Part shown: positions 3,623 through 56,121 of the stretch, one piece after another | Layout of the letters: every line of letters starts with the position of its first letter | Numbering within the stretch: the first letter of the stretch is position 1 | Source of the DNA: a candidate division FCPU426 bacterium | Lineage (GTDB): Bacteria > Oederibacteriota > Muellerivitia > Muellerivitales > DAHXKG01 | Direction: 5' to 3' | DNA: 64,000 bases | NCBI GenBank assembly: GCA_027366525.1 | Contig: DAHXKG010000001.1 | Span: forward strand, 186,001-250,000 | Position numbers and translations under genes: made by a program | The notes under the pieces: generated by a model | Seen by the model: only the letters and a program-made list of their open reading frames with translations | What the model was told of the DNA's origin: nothing | Databases searched by the model: none

Positions 3623-4387
3623 TTAACTATATTCCAAGAATGAACCTGGAAGTCCCCATTGATGCAATTCATATAAATACTGGTGACTTTTATTAACACG
3701 AATTTTCCCATTGCTTGCTAAAGTAATTTCATATCTTGGCAACGGACGCGGAGCGGGCCCTTCAAAATTAATCCCAGAAATATAATATCCGCTCCCATGA
3801 CATGGACATTTGAAAATTTGTTCCGATGGCAGCCAATTTGGTATACATCCCAAGTGGGTACAAATCGATGATAAAGCATAAAAACCCGAGTGATCTCGAA
3901 CCAAAAAAACCTTTTTGTTTAATTTAAACTGGCTATGAACCCCTATTGTAAACTCACTTGGTAATCCGGCCTCAAAAACTGGATTCGGCTCAAATGTCAC
4001 TTGAGGAAATAAAAATCGAACAAATCCTGCAAAGGCTCCCAATGAAGCTGCGGCAAATGTGACCCAGCCTAAACCTAAAACCGAAATAAAAGATCGCCGC
4101 GTCATCGGCTGATCTAAAATCGATACCGAAGACGCTTCTTCGTTTTTTTTAATCGGTATAACGCTATTTGTTTTATCGATCTTTTTTATATTCTTGATAT
4201 TTTTCCAAACAAATAACCCCAAAACTCCCACAATCATCAATACAAGCAACAAAAGACCTATCGTCCATAAATCGCTGCTAAAACTCATACTCCTACTTAA
4301 AAAACTGCTTGCAAAAGCATTTTGTTGCATTACACCCCACAAAATTAATCCTCCACCAAAATACCATTTTGCTTTGTTGAATTTCAT
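3623..4387 (-). CDS. Rieske iron-sulfur protein of the bc complex (copy A)
   Basis: This is the [2Fe-2S] subunit that takes electrons from quinol and passes them to cytochrome c. Cluster ligands are in CTHLGC (C176, H178; C181 for the disulfide) and CPCHGS (C194, H197; C196). A twin-arginine signal and membrane anchor (TRRSFISVLGLG, residues 96-107) sit in the middle of the protein, not at the start. They are preceded by an extra N-terminal segment holding a signal-like helix (about 10-27) and a second helix (about 41-61), which is atypical for the family. It is the first gene of the bc operon and follows a good promoter at 4461-4490. Bases 3633-4119 are duplicated in copy B at 7126-7612. Confidence 0.93.
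   Translation of the reverse strand: MKFNKAKWYFGGGLILWGVMQQNAFASSFLSRSMSFSSDLWTIGLLLLVLMIVGVLGLFVWKNIKNIKKIDKTNSVIPIKKNEEASSVSILDQPMTRRSFISVLGLGWVTFAAASLGAFAGFVRFLFPQVTFEPNPVFEAGLPSEFTIGVHSQFKLNKKVFLVRDHSGFYALSSICTHLGCIPNWLPSEQIFKCPCHGSGYYISGINFEGPAPRPLPRYEITLASNGKIRVNKSHQYLYELHQWGLPGSFLEYS
3633..4119 (-). repeat. 487-bp direct repeat, left copy (Rieske domain)
   Basis: By eye this segment matches 7126-7612 with only three differences, at 4025, 4063 and 4097 or within a base or two of them. All three lie at the 5' end of the genes, so about 390 bases are completely identical. Identity stops abruptly at both ends: upstream the two proteins are related but clearly diverged, and downstream the last codons differ. 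This pattern points to recent gene conversion or a recent segmental duplication. Confidence 0.95.
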
Positions 4388-5139: not shown

Positions 5140-7008
5140 ATGAGACTATATTCTGGAACTTCCATTCAATTCATTCAAGATTCAGTACGAAACCAAATTG
5201 CCAATAAACTCCAAAATGCCTTCTTTGAGCAATTTCATTATAAACCTTCGCCAGCTGAAGTGCGATCTTGGAATCATTCACTCCTTTCCTTATCATCTGT
5301 CTTGAATGAGGCACAACTCTTTGACCACGGTATATTGCTAGAATACCAACTCCCTTTGAATTCAAAACGCCTAGATTGTTTAGTAACTGGCAGAGATTTA
5401 GATGGGCGGGATAATGCGGTGATCATTGAATTAAAGCAATGGGATAAATGTGAAGATTCCGATGGAGAAAATGAAGTCGTAACTTGGTTGGGTGGATCTA
5501 AACGAGATGTGTTACATCCTTCCGCTCAGGTTGGTTACTATAAGTTATATCTTCAAGATTCCCATACAGCCTTTTATGAAGGAGATCATTCCGTTCGTTT
5601 GAATGCATGCTCTTACCTGCATAACTATCCTCGAGAAAACCAAGACGTCATTTTTTCAAATAAATTCAAAAAAATCCTATTAGAAAATCCATTGTTCACG
5701 AAAGATGATGTACCCGCCTTGGAAACATTTCTGGCATCACGACTGCAAAAAGGAGAAGGGTTAGAAGTTTTAACAAAAATCGAACAAAATCGATACCGCC
5801 CCAGCAAACAGTTAATGAATCATGTCGCCCAAATCATCCAAGGAAAACATGAGTATGTGTTGTTAGACGAACAGGTTGTTGTGTTTGATCGAGTTTGGGC
5901 CTGCACTCAGAAAAATCTGTCCCAAAAATCTGTAGTCCTTATCAAAGGAGGGCCTGGAACCGGCAAATCCGTACTGGCTATAAACCTTTTAGCACGATTC
6001 CTTGCTGATGGAATCAATGCGCATTATGTAACTGGATCCAAAGCCTTTACAGAAACTCTACGAAAAATCATTGGGCCTCGTGGAGCCGTTCAATTCAAGT
6101 ATTTTAATAGTTACACTCAAGCTGAACAAAATGCCGTAGATGTTTTGATCTGCGATGAGGCCCACCGAATAAGGGATACGAGCAATTCCAGATTTACTCG
6201 TAAAGAAGCACGTTCAACCTTAACCCAAATAGATGAACTTTTAAAAGCAGGTAAAATTTGCGTGTTTTTCATTGATGATGACCAAGTCGTTCGTCCTGGA
6301 GAAATTGGAAAAGTAGACTATTTGAAAAATGCTGCACTACAAAAAGCAATTTCTATCCACGAATACGAGCTTGAAACTCAATTTCGTTGTAGTGGATCCG
6401 ACGGATTCGTCAATTGGATCAACAACACCTTAGAAGTCAGGCCTACTGCTAATGTTCTTTGGAATTGTGAAAAGGAAGAATTTGATTTTAAAATTTTTGA
6501 AAACCCATTTCTTTTGGAAGCGGCCATTCTTGAAAAAATTCAACAAGGATCCAGCGGTCGAATGACTGCTGGATTTTGCTGGAAATGGTCGGATCCTCAA
6601 TCGGACGGAACTTTACCTGCAAATGTCATTTTAGGCGACTACAAACGTCCTTGGAACGCTAAACCTAATAAGAAACTTGCCGTTGGTATTCCAACAGCCT
6701 CTTTGTGGGCAACGGATCCAAATGGACAGGGGCAAGTGGGCTGCATTTATACCGCTCAAGGATTTGAATTTGATTATGTAGGAGTCCTTTTTGGAAAAGA
6801 TCTTGTTTATAACCCTGACAAACCTAGTTGGGAAGGTCATCCAGACCAAAGTGCTGACCCATATGTCAAAAAAGCAAAAAATCAATTTATAGATCTTGTT
6901 AAAAATACTTATCGTGTTTTGTTGTCGAGAGGACTAAAAGGTTGTTATGTTTACTTTCAGGACAAAAACACAGAACGTTTTTTTAAAAGCAGAATGATAG
7001 CTAAATAA
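5140..7008 (+). CDS. PD-(D/E)XK nuclease-like / DUF2075 (Schlafen-group helicase) fusion protein
   Basis: This 622-residue soluble protein has two parts. The N-terminal part (about 60-165) shows a nuclease-like pattern: D79 in RLDC, then E97 and K99 in VIIELKQW, fitting D-(X)n-ExK. The C-terminal part is a superfamily-1-type helicase of the DUF2075 family: Walker A GGPGTGKS (270-277), Walker B VLICDEAH (335-342), FFIDDDQ (376-382), TQFR (413-416), YTAQGFEFDYVG (536-547) and a final RVLLSRG (about 595-601). It stands alone, divergent from the bc operon and converging on the second Rieske gene. DUF2075 proteins are often found in defence or repair contexts; that role here is inference. No cognate methylase, toxin or phage gene is adjacent. 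Confidence 0.85.
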   Translation: MRLYSGTSIQFIQDSVRNQIANKLQNAFFEQFHYKPSPAEVRSWNHSLLSLSSVLNEAQLFDHGILLEYQLPLNSKRLDCLVTGRDLDGRDNAVIIELKQWDKCEDSDGENEVVTWLGGSKRDVLHPSAQVGYYKLYLQDSHTAFYEGDHSVRLNACSYLHNYPRENQDVIFSNKFKKILLENPLFTKDDVPALETFLASRLQKGEGLEVLTKIEQNRYRPSKQLMNHVAQIIQGKHEYVLLDEQVVVFDRVWACTQKNLSQKSVVLIKGGPGTGKSVLAINLLARFLADGINAHYVTGSKAFTETLRKIIGPRGAVQFKYFNSYTQAEQNAVDVLICDEAHRIRDTSNSRFTRKEARSTLTQIDELLKAGKICVFFIDDDQVVRPGEIGKVDYLKNAALQKAISIHEYELETQFRCSGSDGFVNWINNTLEVRPTANVLWNCEKEEFDFKIFENPFLLEAAILEKIQQGSSGRMTAGFCWKWSDPQSDGTLPANVILGDYKRPWNAKPNKKLAVGIPTASLWATDPNGQGQVGCIYTAQGFEFDYVGVLFGKDLVYNPDKPSWEGHPDQSADPYVKKAKNQFIDLVKNTYRVLLSRGLKGCYVYFQDKNTERFFKSRMIAK

Positions 7009-7112: not shown

Positions 7113-7913
7113 TTATCCTGCGTAATCCAAGAATGAACCTGGAAGTCCCCATTGATGCAATTCATATAAATACTGGTGACTTTTATTAACACGAATTTTC
7201 CCATTGCTTGCTAAAGTAATTTCATATCTTGGCAACGGACGCGGAGCGGGCCCTTCAAAATTAATCCCAGAAATATAATATCCGCTCCCATGACATGGAC
7301 ATTTGAAAATTTGTTCCGATGGCAGCCAATTTGGTATACATCCCAAGTGGGTACAAATCGATGATAAAGCATAAAAACCCGAGTGATCTCGAACCAAAAA
7401 AACCTTTTTGTTTAATTTAAACTGGCTATGAACCCCTATTGTAAACTCACTTGGTAATCCGGCCTCAAAAACTGGATTCGGCTCAAATGTCACTTGAGGA
7501 AATAAAAATCGAACAAACCCTGCAAAGGCTCCCAATGAAGCTGCGGCAAATGTGGCCCAGCCTAAACCTAAAACCGAAATAAAAGATCGTCGCGTCATCG
7601 GCTGATCTAAAACTGGAAAACCGGTTTCATTAGTCGTATTCTTGGTAGAAATTTCAGAATTTTTGGATTGCAAAGTTTTTTTCTCACTATTTAATGTTTT
7701 CATACGGGATCGAAGGTAACTTATCCCTTTATAGCCGATTACAAGTATAAAAAACAAAAACAGAACCATTAAACAACCCAATCCCATTTCCCATATAGCG
7801 GAACTTAGTGACATACTTTGACTTAACCAACCTGCAGCCCAAACTGGGGATGCACCTACCACAGTTATTATTCCAAACATCATTATGGTCAGAAATTTAA
7901 AATTTGATTTCAT
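7113..7913 (-). CDS. Rieske iron-sulfur protein, second copy (copy B)
   Basis: This paralogue of the Rieske subunit at 3623-4387 has 266 residues. From the QPMTRRSF twin-arginine motif onward it is nearly identical: one Thr-to-Ala change after GLGW, and a different tail ending FLDYAG instead of FLEYS. The first 95 or so residues are only distantly similar (WLSQSMSLSS versus FLSRSMSFSS), again with a signal-like helix and a second helix. Ligands CTHLGC and CPCHGS are intact. The ATG start has a strong GGGAGG site six bases upstream. It has no cytochrome b gene next to it, so it may supply the same complex under different regulation, or assemble elsewhere. Confidence 0.92.
   Translation of the reverse strand: MKSNFKFLTIMMFGIITVVGASPVWAAGWLSQSMSLSSAIWEMGLGCLMVLFLFFILVIGYKGISYLRSRMKTLNSEKKTLQSKNSEISTKNTTNETGFPVLDQPMTRRSFISVLGLGWATFAAASLGAFAGFVRFLFPQVTFEPNPVFEAGLPSEFTIGVHSQFKLNKKVFLVRDHSGFYALSSICTHLGCIPNWLPSEQIFKCPCHGSGYYISGINFEGPAPRPLPRYEITLASNGKIRVNKSHQYLYELHQWGLPGSFLDYAG
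7126..7612 (-). repeat. 487-bp direct repeat, right copy (Rieske domain)
   Basis: This is the partner of 3633-4119, in the same orientation and offset by 3493 bases, with three mismatches. Recombination between the copies would delete the nuclease-helicase gene and leave one intact chimeric Rieske gene directly upstream of cytochrome b. Confidence 0.95.
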
Positions 7914-8864: not shown

Positions 8865-9060
8865 TATAGTTACATATTCTTATAAACCAGTATGATGATT
8901 TCGGTGCACACTTAAAGAATTCTTAAAATCAATCCAAAATCCACTAATTAATTTATCAACTCCACACAAAGCATGAATAAATTTTAAAAACCATTGCATT
9001 ATTTTAAAATTTAACATAAAACAGAAATTTACAATTATATATTTTTTGAGGAGCCTGCCA

Positions 9061-10656
9061 GTGAAAGCATTTCTTTGCATTTTGACTTTTTTTTTAAGCA
9101 TCCCTTACACCTATTCCAAGGTTATTTCACAAATTGTGGTTTCCCCTCAAAAAATTCTGAGACCCATTAGCCGCTATGTTTATGGTTTAAATACACAAAA
9201 CTCAGTATCAACTAATGCAACTATTCGTCGACTAGGAACTTATCGGATGAGTACATATAATTGGGTCATTAATGCATCCAACGCTGGCCCTATTGACAAT
9301 AACTCCAATAATAATCATCCATGTCAAGCAATGGGGTGTTTACATTGCAATCAGCCGGGGGGAGAAATTATTCACTTTGTTAAAGAAAACAAAAAAAAGC
9401 ATATGGCTTCTTTAATTACCCTTCCCTTGCTTCGATATGTTGCTGGCGACATCAATGGCCCTGTTCCACGATGGAAAGCAGCACCCAGTTCCCGCTTCAA
9501 GCAATCTGACTATTTTATGCGTCATCCTCACTATACCTTACACCCTAGTCCTGCAAACTATGTTGTCTACCAAGATGAGTTTGTACATTACTTAGTTCAT
9601 TATTTTAAAAAAGCAAACCAAGGAGGTATTGGTTTCTATGCTCTTGACGATGATCCCTCTTATTGGCCCATTCATGATCCATTAGTTCATCCTGAACCTA
9701 CTCAATATTGGGAGTTATCGAATATCTCCTACGGATTAGCTTATAACATTTTAAAAATTGATCCTACCGCCAAAATTGTCGGCCCAGATCTTCACGGTTG
9801 GAATGCTTTTATTAGCCTTAATCATGCTCCTGGATATCGTCAACTTAATCAAACTTATAAAACATTTTTAGATTTTTATCTTAGGCGGATGCATAATTTA
9901 TCAGAATTGGATCACGTCCGATATTTGTCGGTGCTTTCACTGCATTGGTTCTCTAAAGTTCGAGTTCACGGAAAACGCATCACTGGAAATTGTATTACGC
10001 CTCTCTGTATGAAAGCTCGGATGGAAGCACCCCGAAGCCTATGGGATCCTACTTATATAGAAAACAGTTCCATTACACGCAAAATACATAAACCCATTGA
10101 TCTTATTGCATGGGTGGACAAGAAAATTCAAGCCGATGACCCTGGAACCAAATTGGCTTTTACAGAATATAATTATGGAGCTGATAATAATATTTCAGGT
10201 GGGATAGCTGAAGCAGATGTTTTAGGTGCTTTTGGAAAACAAGGGGTTTATATGGCTAATTTTCAAGGTCCCTTAGATTCCTATATTCAGGCTGCGTTTC
10301 AGATTTTTAGAAATTACAATGGACACAATGCGCACTTTGGCAATACTGCTGTAAAAACTTCAGATGTTGATCCAAATCGTTTTTCATTATATGCCGCCAC
10401 AAATACCCAAAAGCCAACTTTACTTTGGATTCTTATTTTAAACAAACAATTAACTCATCGTTTTCAAATTCCTATTCATATCTCCAGCCAGTCTGTTTAT
10501 AAAACATTTCAAGCCTATCAATTTAATGCACTTTCGTCAAAAATTCATCCCATCATTCCACATGGTGTCATCCTTAAAAACACAATCAAAACAAACTTTG
10601 AACCTCTTTCCGTTACTTTATTAGTTTGTCACTGTGATAATCAAATCAATCACTGA
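9061..10656 (+). CDS. Secreted glycoside hydrolase family 44-like protein
   Basis: GH44 enzymes are endo-beta-glucanases/xyloglucanases with a TIM barrel. A GTG start at 9061 is chosen because AGGAG lies 7 bases upstream and a signal peptide follows at once (FLCILTFFLSIP...YS). An in-frame TTG at 9046 would overlap that ribosome site. GH44 landmarks run in order: RRLGTYRMSTYNW and NASNAG near the N-terminus, SLITLP, VYQDEFVHYLV, YALDDDPSYW and TEYNYGADN. The nucleophile Glu of TEYNYG is present (residue 369). The acid/base Glu of the usual DNEP motif is Asp (residue 198; GAT at 9652-9654), while the spacing to the nucleophile (171) is close to the 173 known for CelJ. No carbohydrate-binding or dockerin module is present. 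Confidence 0.85.
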   Translation: MKAFLCILTFFLSIPYTYSKVISQIVVSPQKILRPISRYVYGLNTQNSVSTNATIRRLGTYRMSTYNWVINASNAGPIDNNSNNNHPCQAMGCLHCNQPGGEIIHFVKENKKKHMASLITLPLLRYVAGDINGPVPRWKAAPSSRFKQSDYFMRHPHYTLHPSPANYVVYQDEFVHYLVHYFKKANQGGIGFYALDDDPSYWPIHDPLVHPEPTQYWELSNISYGLAYNILKIDPTAKIVGPDLHGWNAFISLNHAPGYRQLNQTYKTFLDFYLRRMHNLSELDHVRYLSVLSLHWFSKVRVHGKRITGNCITPLCMKARMEAPRSLWDPTYIENSSITRKIHKPIDLIAWVDKKIQADDPGTKLAFTEYNYGADNNISGGIAEADVLGAFGKQGVYMANFQGPLDSYIQAAFQIFRNYNGHNAHFGNTAVKTSDVDPNRFSLYAATNTQKPTLLWILILNKQLTHRFQIPIHISSQSVYKTFQAYQFNALSSKIHPIIPHGVILKNTIKTNFEPLSVTLLVCHCDNQINH

Positions 10657-42457: not shown

Positions 42458-42958
42458 TCATGAATCTGACGGCGGATTCAAATTGGTAAAGTCTGTTGGC
42501 GAGAGGTTTTGGAGAAATTTTTTAAACTCCGACATTTCATTTTTGTATTTTTCTTTATCAATAATAGTCGCATTGATGACGACTTTTTCGGCTACAAAAA
42601 TAGGTGCCGCCATTCTCAGAGCTAACGCAATGGCATCAGAGGGTCTTGAATCCAACTCATATCGTTCCCCCGTTGCTGCATGATCCAAAATAATTTTGGA
42701 AAAAAAAGTAGTTTGATCCACATCATTAATAATGATCCGTTCTGCTTGAGATCCCAGCGTTTGAATAACATTTTTTAGCAAATCATGGGTCATCGGTCTT
42801 GGAAAAACTTGATCACTCAGTTGAATAAATATTGCCGTTGCTTCCGGAATTCCAATGGGTATTGGTAAATATCTCTTTTCTCCCTCATCTGTTAAAATAA
42901 CAAACGGGGTTTTCAAATCCGGATCGACCGCAATGCCTCTGACTTTCATTTCAATCAT
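42458..42958 (-). CDS. DUF151 (bifunctional nuclease family) protein, copy 1
   Basis: This 166-residue protein belongs to the DUF151/BFN family (T. maritima TM0160-like fold). Conserved segments are RGIAVDPDLKTPFVILTDEGE, YLPIPIGIPEATAIF, RPMTHDLLKNV and RPSDAIALALRMAAPIFVAE. The start at 42958 is chosen because the neighbouring paralogue begins at the equivalent Met (MIEMK). Some members are nucleases in plants; the bacterial role is poorly known. It lies 63 bases downstream of a paralogue with over 50% identity by eye. Confidence 0.85.
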   Translation of the reverse strand: MIEMKVRGIAVDPDLKTPFVILTDEGEKRYLPIPIGIPEATAIFIQLSDQVFPRPMTHDLLKNVIQTLGSQAERIIINDVDQTTFFSKIILDHAATGERYELDSRPSDAIALALRMAAPIFVAEKVVINATIIDKEKYKNEMSEFKKFLQNLSPTDFTNLNPPSDS

Positions 42959-43021
42959 AAAACATTCCATTTCTTGTTTAATCAAAATTTTAAACAAACT
43001 TATTTATTAAACTTCACTCCG

Positions 43022-43519
43022 TCATGGATCTTTTGGATTAGAATTAATAAAATCTGATAGCGAAATATGTTCCAAACGTTTTTTAAATTCCGACAACTCG
43101 GTTTTGCATCTTTTTTTATCAACAATGGTCGCTGTTACGACTACTTTTTCTGCTACTAAAATAGGCGAACACGTCCTTAGCGCCAACGCAATCGCATCCG
43201 AAGGCCTAGAATCTATTTCATATTTTTCTAACGTTTTTACATTTTCTAAAAAAATTTTAGAAAAAAAAGTATTTTTATCAATGTCGTTAATTACGATTCG
43301 AGTTACTTGCACTCCATGCACTTCTATTACCTGTTTTAAAAGATCATGTACCATAGGTCGAGGCAACTGCTGTTGACTCAGTTGAATAAAAATAGCCGTT
43401 GCTTCTGTTACCCCAATCCATATCGGAAGATATCGCTGCTCTTCTTCATCTGTTAAAACAACAGCTGGAGTTTGTAAAGTCGGATCAACCGCAATACCTC
43501 GAATTTTCATTTCAATCAT
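43022..43519 (-). CDS. DUF151 (bifunctional nuclease family) protein, copy 2
   Basis: This paralogue of 42458-42958 has 165 residues. The same landmarks appear: RGIAVDPTLQTPAVVLTDEEE, YLPIWIGVTEATAIF, RPMVHDLLKQV and RPSDAIALALRTCSPILVAE. The ATG at 43519 is chosen over a TTG two codons upstream. It is the upstream member of the pair, so the two genes arose by tandem duplication. Codon usage does not differ from the neighbours. Confidence 0.85.
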   Translation of the reverse strand: MIEMKIRGIAVDPTLQTPAVVLTDEEEQRYLPIWIGVTEATAIFIQLSQQQLPRPMVHDLLKQVIEVHGVQVTRIVINDIDKNTFFSKIFLENVKTLEKYEIDSRPSDAIALALRTCSPILVAEKVVVTATIVDKKRCKTELSEFKKRLEHISLSDFINSNPKDP

Positions 43520-43640
43520 AATCAAACTCGCTTCTGCTGTAATTTTTTACCCCAATAATATTATAAGTTTCTTTCTCGAACCTTTCAATTGTCTGCATTC
43601 CTTGCAATATATAATATTTTTGAAGCATTCATCAAAAAAA

Positions 43641-52580: not shown

Positions 52581-53585
52581 CTATTCATTCGCCTGGAAAT
52601 GATCGAACCCCAATGCTTTAAGTGGACTACGATGCCCTTTCATATCAATCCAAGAAACACCTTGAGACTTTGGAAGAATACGACCAATGGATTTACATGC
52701 AATTCCTGTTTGAGGAACCAATTCATTTAAAACTTTTGAAATTTGTTGAGGTGAAACAGTAAACAGCAATTCATAATCTTCTCCCCCATGAAATACTAAA
52801 TCCGTTATTTTATAAAAATGTTGGTTACAAAATTGCTGTAATTCCGTGGATGTTGGGAGTGCTGATTCATGGATTTCCGCTCCAACTCCTGATTCCTGAC
52901 AAATGTGGTGAATTTCACTTGAAAGCCCATCTGAGATGTCAATTGCTGAATGGGCCAATTTATATTGAGCTAAATAGCGTCCCACTTCACATCGTGGACT
53001 TGGTGAAAGATGTCGTTGAATTAAAAACTGTTCTTGTTGATTAAATGTTTTTTTAAAATTTTCTTCTAACAATTTTAATCCAGCCGATGAATCCCCTAAG
53101 GTGCCTGTCACAAAAACAGCATCGCCTACTTGAGCCCTGCTGCGCTGCAAAGCTTTCTCTTGCTCAACCCACCCAATCAAAGCAATATTAATGACCCAGC
53201 AAGGGCTTTTCACCGTATCCCCACCTACCACTGAAACACTAAATTTTTTTCCGATTTCTTCGATCCCACTATAAAAGTCCAAAATCATGGCTTTAGAACA
53301 TCCCACTGGAATCCCCAAAGAAATCGTTGCCGCTACCGGGTGTGCACCCATCGCCGCACAATCGCTAATATTGACGGCCATCGATTTTACGCCTAATTGC
53401 TTTGGAGTTATCCAATCCATACAAAAGTGAACTTTCTCAATCAACATATCGGTAGTAAAAATCAAATCTTTTTTTAAAAATGATTTCACAATAGCAGCAT
53501 CATCCCCAATACCTAAAAGGATATCTTGATTTCTGATTTGGAGATGTTGACGGATTGCTTGGATCAATTCAAATTCACCGAACAT
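52581..53585 (-). CDS. thiL: Thiamine-monophosphate kinase
   Basis: ThiL makes thiamine diphosphate from thiamine monophosphate and ATP. The 334 residues are normal. Signatures: GIGDDAAIV (about 24-32), a TDMLIEKVHF segment, VNISDCAAMGAHPVAATISLGIP, VVGGDTVKSP, VTGTLGDSSAGL, DISDGLSSEIHHIC and a GGEDYELLFT loop. The ribosome site AAGGGA precedes the ATG. It follows argJ by 23 bases in the same direction. Confidence 0.96.
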   Translation of the reverse strand: MFGEFELIQAIRQHLQIRNQDILLGIGDDAAIVKSFLKKDLIFTTDMLIEKVHFCMDWITPKQLGVKSMAVNISDCAAMGAHPVAATISLGIPVGCSKAMILDFYSGIEEIGKKFSVSVVGGDTVKSPCWVINIALIGWVEQEKALQRSRAQVGDAVFVTGTLGDSSAGLKLLEENFKKTFNQQEQFLIQRHLSPSPRCEVGRYLAQYKLAHSAIDISDGLSSEIHHICQESGVGAEIHESALPTSTELQQFCNQHFYKITDLVFHGGEDYELLFTVSPQQISKVLNELVPQTGIACKSIGRILPKSQGVSWIDMKGHRSPLKALGFDHFQANE

Positions 53586-54843: not shown

Positions 54844-55905
54844 TTACGCAGGAGGCAATCCACCTAGATATAAATAATTTAAGGATCTTGACCGACTGAT
54901 CAAGCGGGAAATAATTGGATTGGGGAAGCGATGGACATAAGGAACTGCCCACTCAATATCGCCAGCCGTAATAAATTGCCCAGGCGTATCCTGCTTGACT
55001 CCCGTCTGTTTTTGAAAATACTGGTTATTCATCAACCCCGCAATTACACGATTTACCAACCGATGCAATGCTCCGTGATTTTTTTTGTACAAATTTAATC
55101 CATTGTCGGTTCCATATTCTGCTAAATAAACCAATGGAGCCACTGCAAATAAATGGTAATGAAGTGCTCGTGGCCCTCGGCGCATTTCTAATGGTAAAGT
55201 ACCTTGATTCGTAATTTGACGAACGCCATTTTGATAAGCTAGCATCCCCCATTGAAATAACTTTGAATCGTTGGATACAATCCCTACGGAAGCCACTTCC
55301 AGTCCAGCCCAATAGAACAAATTATTCAAATTATGCTTCCAAGCCTTGGCTAATCGAGCGTTATAATATATCTGCGTTTGACGCGCAATTTGCTGCATCC
55401 ATTTAGTAATTGATTGATATTCTGATGGTGTGACTAGACCACTCTCTCGAATCTTTAGATAGGCAATGGCAAGCGCGTTGGTAAGCCAAACACTCACAAA
55501 CAACCCTTGCCGAGAAAGTTTTCCCCTAAAAATTCCCTCATTCGCCATCCGCTGTAACCCCTGAATAACACATTGGGCAGCTAGACGACTTCCGGTTTGC
55601 TGATAAGCATCAGCGGCTGTTATAATATGTGCTACCATTCTTTTGTAGGGCCTTGAACATTTTTGATAAACTTTCATTTTTTTAATATCAATAATTGACG
55701 CAAGAAACGGCGTGTTTTTTTTATAGAACCCATGAAATTCTGCATTGGGTGATAATTTTTTCCATTTAGGGCAATGATAACTATAATTTGTCAGTTTTAT
55801 TTTTTTATAGTCCCATGGAGATCTCAACGTGGATTTAGCCCATACAAACGAATGACTGAAACTGACTAAAACAACTACCCAGCCCCAAAAAATTAAGCGT
55901 TTCAT
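54844..55905 (-). CDS. Secreted PL5 (AlgL-like) alginate-lyase-family protein lacking the catalytic His
   Basis: This 353-residue protein has a signal peptide (residues 1-24, ending VWA). The start at 55905 is chosen for spacing to GGGGAG. It aligns with the AlgL family of poly-mannuronate lyases from about residue 40 on. The catalytic segment is NNLFYWAG (194-201), and EMRRGPRALHYH (240-251) supplies Arg243 and Tyr250. Spacing matches P. aeruginosa AlgL exactly (Asn201-Arg249 and Tyr256), but the catalytic His202 is Leu196 here (TTG at 55318-55320 on the minus strand). GTLPLEMRR and KNHGALHRL are also conserved. It may bind rather than cleave polysaccharide. It lies just upstream of argJ. 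Confidence 0.82.
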   Translation of the reverse strand: MKRLIFWGWVVVLVSFSHSFVWAKSTLRSPWDYKKIKLTNYSYHCPKWKKLSPNAEFHGFYKKNTPFLASIIDIKKMKVYQKCSRPYKRMVAHIITAADAYQQTGSRLAAQCVIQGLQRMANEGIFRGKLSRQGLFVSVWLTNALAIAYLKIRESGLVTPSEYQSITKWMQQIARQTQIYYNARLAKAWKHNLNNLFYWAGLEVASVGIVSNDSKLFQWGMLAYQNGVRQITNQGTLPLEMRRGPRALHYHLFAVAPLVYLAEYGTDNGLNLYKKNHGALHRLVNRVIAGLMNNQYFQKQTGVKQDTPGQFITAGDIEWAVPYVHRFPNPIISRLISRSRSLNYLYLGGLPPA

Positions 55906-56121
55906 CATTAGCTCCCCTTGAGCCTTTAGTTCCATAAGTATAACTAAGTATTACTTTAATTCAATTTATTTTATACAATATGATTTGAGCGTCTGTTGGG
56001 ATTGTTTTTAGTACTCATTTTGATTAAAGTATGCTACTCAAGTTGCTTGCCGATCAAAAATTTTCAATTGCACTAGAGCCGTCTTTTTTTAAACTCTTCA
56101 TCCACTTTAGAAGGATCGACA

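Follow-up and report, generated by a model that had tools for sequence, protein, structure and literature searches.

What does a PL5-type protein do when leucine stands in the place of the active-site histidine and the catalytic asparagine, arginine and tyrosine are all retained? This question is raised by a gene (P0001) in a 64,000-nucleotide stretch of DNA from a candidate division FCPU426 bacterium, hereafter the window. According to its translation, the true start is probably Met10 or Met11 (55908 or 55905), because a Shine-Dalgarno-like AGGGGAG was seen by eye just 5′ of these codons, and the hydrophobic N-terminus that would follow is a probable Sec signal peptide (Table 1). The open reading frame (ORF) is intact and ends in a conserved LGGLPPA sequence. 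P0001 passes the curated cut-off of Pfam PF05426 (131.8 bits versus 22.2; E value 4.4e-38), and its best solved relative by sequence is Smlt1473 (phmmer, 1.5e-41), the other best solved relatives being the Pandoraea lyase PanPL, AlgL, and A1-III, all members of PL5. Given these two E values, a chance match is not an issue. An AlphaFold2 model built from 48 sequences (mean pLDDT of 93.3 and pTM of 0.89) is an (alpha/alpha) toroid, for which PL5 entries top the Foldseek and VIA-align rows. It superposes on AlgL H202A with a Z score of 40.6 and an rmsd of 2.2 over 323 residues (best alignment) and on Smlt1473 with a Z score of 39 and an rmsd of 1.5 over 293 residues. By sequence and predicted fold, P0001 is therefore a PL5 protein. 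It nonetheless scored far under every cut-off of the AlgL equivalog (NCBIfam PRK00325 models), with a best score of 202.6 bits versus 366, and it should not be filed as AlgL or as an active alginate lyase, because the active-site histidine is missing and the gene lies outside an alginate operon.

Table 1. Features of the P0001 locus, in positions of the window and residues counted from the first ATG
Feature	Position	Strand	Remarks
P0001, PL5-type (Alginate_lyase, PF05426) gene	54844..55935	-	Longest ORF, 363 aa from first ATG
P0001, likely start Met10	54844..55908	-	354 aa; ORF, Pfam match, AF2 model
Hydrophobic N-terminus, residues about 10-32	55840..55908	-	By eye; N-terminal helix 2-26 in the model
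Lid loop, residues 67-83	55687..55737	-	Extra KK; Asp75 of all 13 sisters lost
Q143 to W150 (Smlt1473 Q112 to W119)	55486..55509	-	A144G, Q148S, G149V versus sister-invariant residues
N204-N205	55321..55326	-	Smlt1473 N166-N167; N205 is the carboxylate-neutralising Asn
L206, codon TTG	55318..55320	-	AlgL His202, Smlt1473 His168, A1-III His192 position
R253	55177..55179	-	AlgL R249, Smlt1473 R215
Y260, catalytic Tyr	55156..55158	-	AlgL Y256, Smlt1473 Y222
F263	55147..55149	-	AlgL Y259, Smlt1473 Y225 position
argJ, downstream of P0001	53609..54811	-	Start ATG 54811 (probable), 32 bases after PL5 stop
thiL-like gene, beyond argJ	52581-53585

A sequence-only reading of the window had proposed that Asn195, Arg243, and Tyr250 are spaced as in AlgL and that AlgL His202 is replaced by Leu196. 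Both proposals were correct. In our numbering, which adds 10 to that reading's count from Met11, the motif N204-N205-L206 is followed by R253 and Y260, lying 48 and 55 residues after N205, exactly as for N201, R249, and Y256 of AlgL (residues as named in the accessible part of PMC8829089). The phmmer alignment sets Leu206 under the histidine of Smlt1473 and of the Pandoraea PL5 enzyme, and under the alanine of their engineered mutants. The Asn, Arg, and Tyr of the PL5 site are thus all present in P0001, and the active-site His is absent. Residue roles in Smlt1473 (Stenotrophomonas maltophilia; PDB 7fhu and others) were taken from the accessible part of PMC8511899. Of its residues, P0001 keeps Y39, Q112, W119, N166, N167, W171, both arginines (R215 and R218), H221, and Y222. 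In contrast, His168, Tyr225, Tyr115, and Tyr38 are Leu, Phe, Phe, and Phe in P0001, and the lid residues differ. The Phe at the Tyr38 position occurs in 13/13 nearest sisters and those at the Tyr115 and Tyr225 positions in 2/13 each, whereas none of the 13 shares the Leu. AlgL of Pseudomonas aeruginosa (4ozv; H202A, 4ozw), 24% identical in the structural alignment, carries His202 and Tyr259 where P0001 has Leu and Phe; like AlgL, P0001 is probably exported.

A sequencing error at L206 is very unlikely because TTG has no base in common with CAT or CAC, and the 284-kb contig with core genes on which P0001 lies also speaks against an assembly error; both were rejected. The earlier description of a precise loss in an otherwise well-kept site was accurate as to the His-to-Leu change beside an intact Asn, Arg, and Tyr, but not as to the rest of the site, since the helix spanning residues 144 to 153 and the lid loop have changed. 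Its 13 nearest sisters are invariant at 94 columns (His206 included), and P0001 differs from them at 24 of these, compared to 0 to 4 of 94 to 98 such columns for any sister under the same test. I152T and G153N add to the tabulated replacements in the helix carrying Q143 and W150, L207F adjoins Leu206, and the lid shows D75T plus the additional lysines. The surroundings of Leu206 have therefore moved as well, and the His-to-Leu change is no isolated point loss; such rapid change can also be a sign that constraint was lost. A different histidine, or the lid lysines K72/K73, might fill the place of His202 in space, which would make P0001 a normal lyase despite its sequence. Five residues ahead of L206, P0001 has H201 whereas Asp or Glu is usual among the sisters, and both lysines were gained in P0001, yet neither feature is found in most other Leu clades, and we regard this explanation as very unlikely.

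To place the gene, we scanned 84,980 species genomes from a profile seed and found relatives where a single-sequence P0001 scan of genome contigs had returned none. The profile scan matched 214 stretches, of which 200 were confirmed and the best 80 kept. The top ones among these best 80 of 200 were all from Acidobacteriota, the closest being 51% identical, and all 80 had His at position 206 (three as QNH). Hits were present in 42/399 genomes searched of the class of the best match. The Terriglobia PL5 proteins of this phylum, e.g., that of Granulicella pACIX902 (P0002) and L048-L057, are 43 to 54% identical to P0001, share its LGGLPPA ending, and are often encoded near GH88 genes and TonB receptors. 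Two trees were computed with columns 206 and 263 omitted. The quick tree comprised 142 rows (180 rows reduced to 145 by dropping identical or near-identical ones, then freed of fragments L069, L096, and L203, the full ORFs of the first two carrying His); there, P0001 fell in a set of 14 with an SH-aLRT of 98, the 13 others being Acidobacteriota-type and all having His. In the careful tree of 80 rows picked by hand, with ten long or odd rows named for exclusion, it fell in a set of 10 with a support of 98/95, in which 9/9 others had His. The closest relatives of P0001 are thus Acidobacteriota proteins with the histidine.

P0001 lies in a Terriglobia clade, and its host is a member of another, small phylum (45 genomes in the collection, versus more than 399 for the Acidobacteriota class of the best match alone); transfer between phyla, probably from Acidobacteriota, is the simplest account. 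Since the composition of the gene (GC, 0.403; GC3, 0.354) is near that of its neighbours (argJ, 0.411 and 0.337), the transfer would not be recent. A native gene of the host phylum was not supported, as of 59 genomes searched with P0001, its own was the only one to match; PF05426 is present in 7/45 host-phylum genomes, host included, and three proteins from the same order, L003-L005, show greater distance and an NNH or NNW motif. Carriage by a phage or plasmid was also rejected, there being no relative in viral contigs and only distant relatives in one phage record and 16 plasmid records. The unverified record of Pseudomonas phage Y5 (L044) contains a canonical NNHSYW AlgL-like stretch. A second PL5-like lineage, about 30% identical and with His and Phe263, occurs in genomes of the Acidobacteriota class (L140 and L168-L171), and three Acidobacteriota PL5 ORFs of 448 to 563 aa (L086, L087, and L096) have an extra C-terminal part with repeated WxNxTYW-like motifs.

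The branch leading to P0001 is long in both trees (0.65 to 0.81, versus 0.15 to 0.31 for the nearest sisters). Together with the altered invariant columns, this could be explained by decay of an acquired lyase that drifts without its partner pathway after transfer. GH88 lies within 8 kb at 13/42 Acidobacteriota His loci and at no Leu locus, and a search of the host genome for GH88 gave no match, so the usual partner would be missing. We nevertheless consider decay quite unlikely, as the ORF is intact with its signal-like N-terminus and conserved C-terminus, none of the catalytic residues Asn, Arg, and Tyr has been lost, three substitutions separate the Leu codon from His, and the gene, not recent by its composition, is still open.

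The replacement had been presented as a singular oddity, a view that did not survive comparison with the family, in which Leu occurs on at least five separate branches. Among the 145 non-redundant rows, 122 have His at position 206 and 16 have Leu; Trp is found in 2, Ile and Gln in 1 each, and the remaining 3 are fragments that lack the position. As Leu-type proteins were the seeds for searching Burkholderiales and Rhizobiales, 16/145 is not a frequency. The phylogeny of N-N-L members that the sequence-only reading had suggested as a check yields 6 Leu changes on the careful tree (6 to 6 in bootstrap trees), where branches with good support force 5, and likewise 6 on the quick tree, at least 4 of them forced. 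One of these changes leads to P0001 and a second to L162, which comes from an Acidobacteriota-class genome. The others mark the Burkholderia-type pair L172/L041, a Rhizobiales clade (L188/L194/L195/L198/L199), the single row L197, and a clade of six rows (L043/L046/L179/L182/L207/L208). A unique singleton is thereby ruled out, and a single Leu clade is not supported, the Leu rows falling on one side in 0% of 200 bootstrap trees. N205, W209, R253, and Y260 are kept in 16/16 Leu rows, and the replacement within PL5 proper is always Leu, the Trp, Trp, Ile, and Gln rows being long-branch outliers. Because Leu stands each time beside an intact Tyr, Arg, and Asn, function would explain the pattern more easily than decay. 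Residue 263 is Phe in 10 Leu rows, His in 6, and Tyr in none, versus Tyr in 71/122 His rows; this coupling is suggestive only and was not significant on 5 independent pairs (median p of 0.25). The Leu-type proteins of Burkholderia, Rhizobiales, and Salipiger (P0003, L172, L188, L194, L195, L198, L199, L179, L182, P0005, and P0007) resemble P0001 in their Asn-Leu, their retained Trp, Arg, and Tyr, and Phe or His at 263, but have separate origins. Judged from these alignments and trees, the His-to-Leu change of P0001 is a real, old substitution within a recurrent pattern. No description of natural His-lacking PL5 proteins was found in titles and abstract openings of the open-access papers searched, which does not prove their absence from print. 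Some PF05426 proteins outside PL5 proper carry Trp at the His position as NNW (L023, L024, and the same-order L005).

The same histidine has been replaced by engineering, including by hydrophobic residues in another family, PL17 (Smlt2602 H208F and Alg17c H202L, the latter known here from its PDB title). According to the accessible parts of the reports, R215 and N167 of Smlt1473 neutralise the carboxylate and Y222 acts as base and acid for ManA, His168 being the base only when the C5-H is on the other face, i.e., in the other C5 configuration; Y225F enhances activity on polyGlcA and polyManA, and H168A is reported as inactivating (PMC8511899). AlgL H202A has no detectable turnover in vitro, yet the P. 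aeruginosa strain carrying it grows and is wild-type-like, in contrast to R249A/E and Y256F strains; its authors suggest that some activity persists under the detection limit, and they cite a large but incomplete loss of activity for A1-III H192 mutants (PMC8829089). With H208F, Smlt2602 becomes less active on alginate and 28-fold more active on poly-GlcA, a gain not seen with H208A (PMC4765187). By analogy with these mutants, a lyase driven by Tyr260 and narrowed in range could have a hydrophobic residue 206 together with Phe263, and P0001 combines both kinds of change, i.e., a hydrophobic residue at the His position as in Smlt2602 H208F and a Tyr-to-Phe replacement as in Smlt1473 Y225F.

Our best reading, which we hold tentatively, is that P0001 is a lyase working with Tyr, Arg, and Asn only, of low or narrowed activity and perhaps directed at a glucuronic-acid polymer. 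Given the published mutants, a lyase of low or shifted activity seems at least as likely as a dead one, and each of the three options offered by the sequence-only reading (a polysaccharide-binding protein, a lyase using only the Tyr, or a new substrate) is compatible with our results. The sequences show the His-to-Leu change, its ancestry and recurrence, the retained Asn, Trp, Arg, and Tyr, and the predicted fold; activity, mechanism, substrate, and location we infer as follows. An exported PL5-fold protein, its gene probably acquired from Acidobacteriota, would have diverged fast, the active-site His becoming Leu on the P0001 branch and Tyr263 probably becoming Phe. Neutralising the C5 carboxylate would fall to N205 and R253, with Y260 serving as base plus acid along the syn "Case I" route of Smlt1473, which is His-independent. 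Leu206 would remove a second base or hydrogen-bond donor at the +1 sugar and may thereby shift the site from guluronate-type sugars to poly-glucuronate- or mannuronate-like polymers, the likely target being the host cell's own exopolysaccharide (EPS).

The neighbours of P0001 (argJ, the thiL-like gene, a HAD phosphatase, and YceI) do not form an alginate biosynthesis operon, and an 8-kb scan found no EPS, AlgX/AlgF, GH88, TonB-receptor, or GH3 marker nearby. EPS or alginate-assembly genes lie within 8 kb at 9/12 Leu loci versus 1/89 His loci (0/42 Acidobacteriota and 1/47 other), a comparison biased towards Leu-type loci, since these supplied the markers, and in which the nine represent only two of the six Leu changes. 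The count excludes three long loci (L238, L240, and L241) and loci shorter than 9 kb (the Leu-type plasmid loci L041 and L043 among them). Of the 12 Leu loci, 5 encode a Bac_transf sugar transferase together with polysaccharide deacetylase, GT2, and Wzy, and 4 encode AlgX/AlgF, as in the L216 run of AlgX, AlgX, AlgF, a Sel1-repeat protein, the Leu-type PL5, and a PL7 lyase. In Rhizobiales-order clusters of this alginate-assembly-like kind (L216, L217, L236, and L237), the Leu-type PL5 takes the place of AlgL with the PL7 lyase adjoining; the PL7 of L216 bears RTX repeats.

The main rival reading, in our view somewhat unlikely, is that P0001 no longer cleaves and has been retained to bind polysaccharide or to serve in assembly, its groove and sugar-binding residues preserved and turnover lost with the histidine. 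AlgL H202A and Smlt1473 H168A lack measurable activity, and over-expressed AlgL H202A gives a three-fold alginate yield in P. aeruginosa according to the accessible part of PMC5099689, so that an AlgL without turnover can act in assembly; the assembly clusters around 9 of the Leu loci are consistent with such a role. The P0001 gene, however, lies outside any such cluster, Tyr260 and Arg253, whose known roles are chemical, are kept in every Leu row, and the replacement in PL5 proper shows no scatter of residues.

As for a Tyr/Arg/Asn-only lyase of low activity, the same two inactive mutants argue against it, Smlt2602 H208F is a Phe in another family, and the EPS link of P0001 is genome-wide rather than local. 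That link favours it in another respect. The host genome, which encodes a single PF05426 protein, has one Bac_transf, recovered by the EPS marker queries, on another contig inside a cluster of glycosyltransferase genes, among them one matching GumK_N (2.3e-14; GumK-type glucuronosyltransferase, N-terminal domain only). An AlgX query found no match in the host genome, but control genomes were equally silent. A broader proposal, which we think unlikely, is that His-to-Leu PL5 proteins form a convergent class of low-turnover, syn-route EPS-assembly lyases for glucuronic-acid-type polymers that use Tyr, Arg, and Asn only, with P0001 as a stand-alone member derived from a degradative Acidobacteriota enzyme and redeployed on the host's GumK-type exopolysaccharide. 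If so, evolution would have made the equivalent of AlgL H202A several times, as a slow "housekeeping" lyase that removes stray polymer and spares the product. The role of the PL5 active-site His is unsettled, the AlgL mutant seeming dead in the tube and working in the cell, and the question becomes testable with natural proteins in which this residue was lost on five or more occasions while the other chemistry was preserved. Leu-type proteins may also be ready-made low-turnover or specificity-shifted lyases; if they are dead binders instead, automatic "alginate lyase" names, e.g., that of the Burkholderia protein, would be wrong.

Elsewhere in the window, positions 9046-10656 (+) encode an exported-looking GH44-type glycoside hydrolase (PF12891, 1.1e-33). 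Two Rieske-type genes (3623-4387 and 7113-7913, both -), whose C-terminal parts of about 170 residues are near-identical by eye, flank the gene of a 622-aa protein (5140-7008, +), which resembles the DUF2075/ATPase type; by eye, the arrangement suggests that a duplication surrounds an inserted gene. Finally, tandem BFN (bifunctional-nuclease-domain) proteins are encoded at 42458-42997 and 43022-43525 (-), the first recognised by Pfam and the second by eye.
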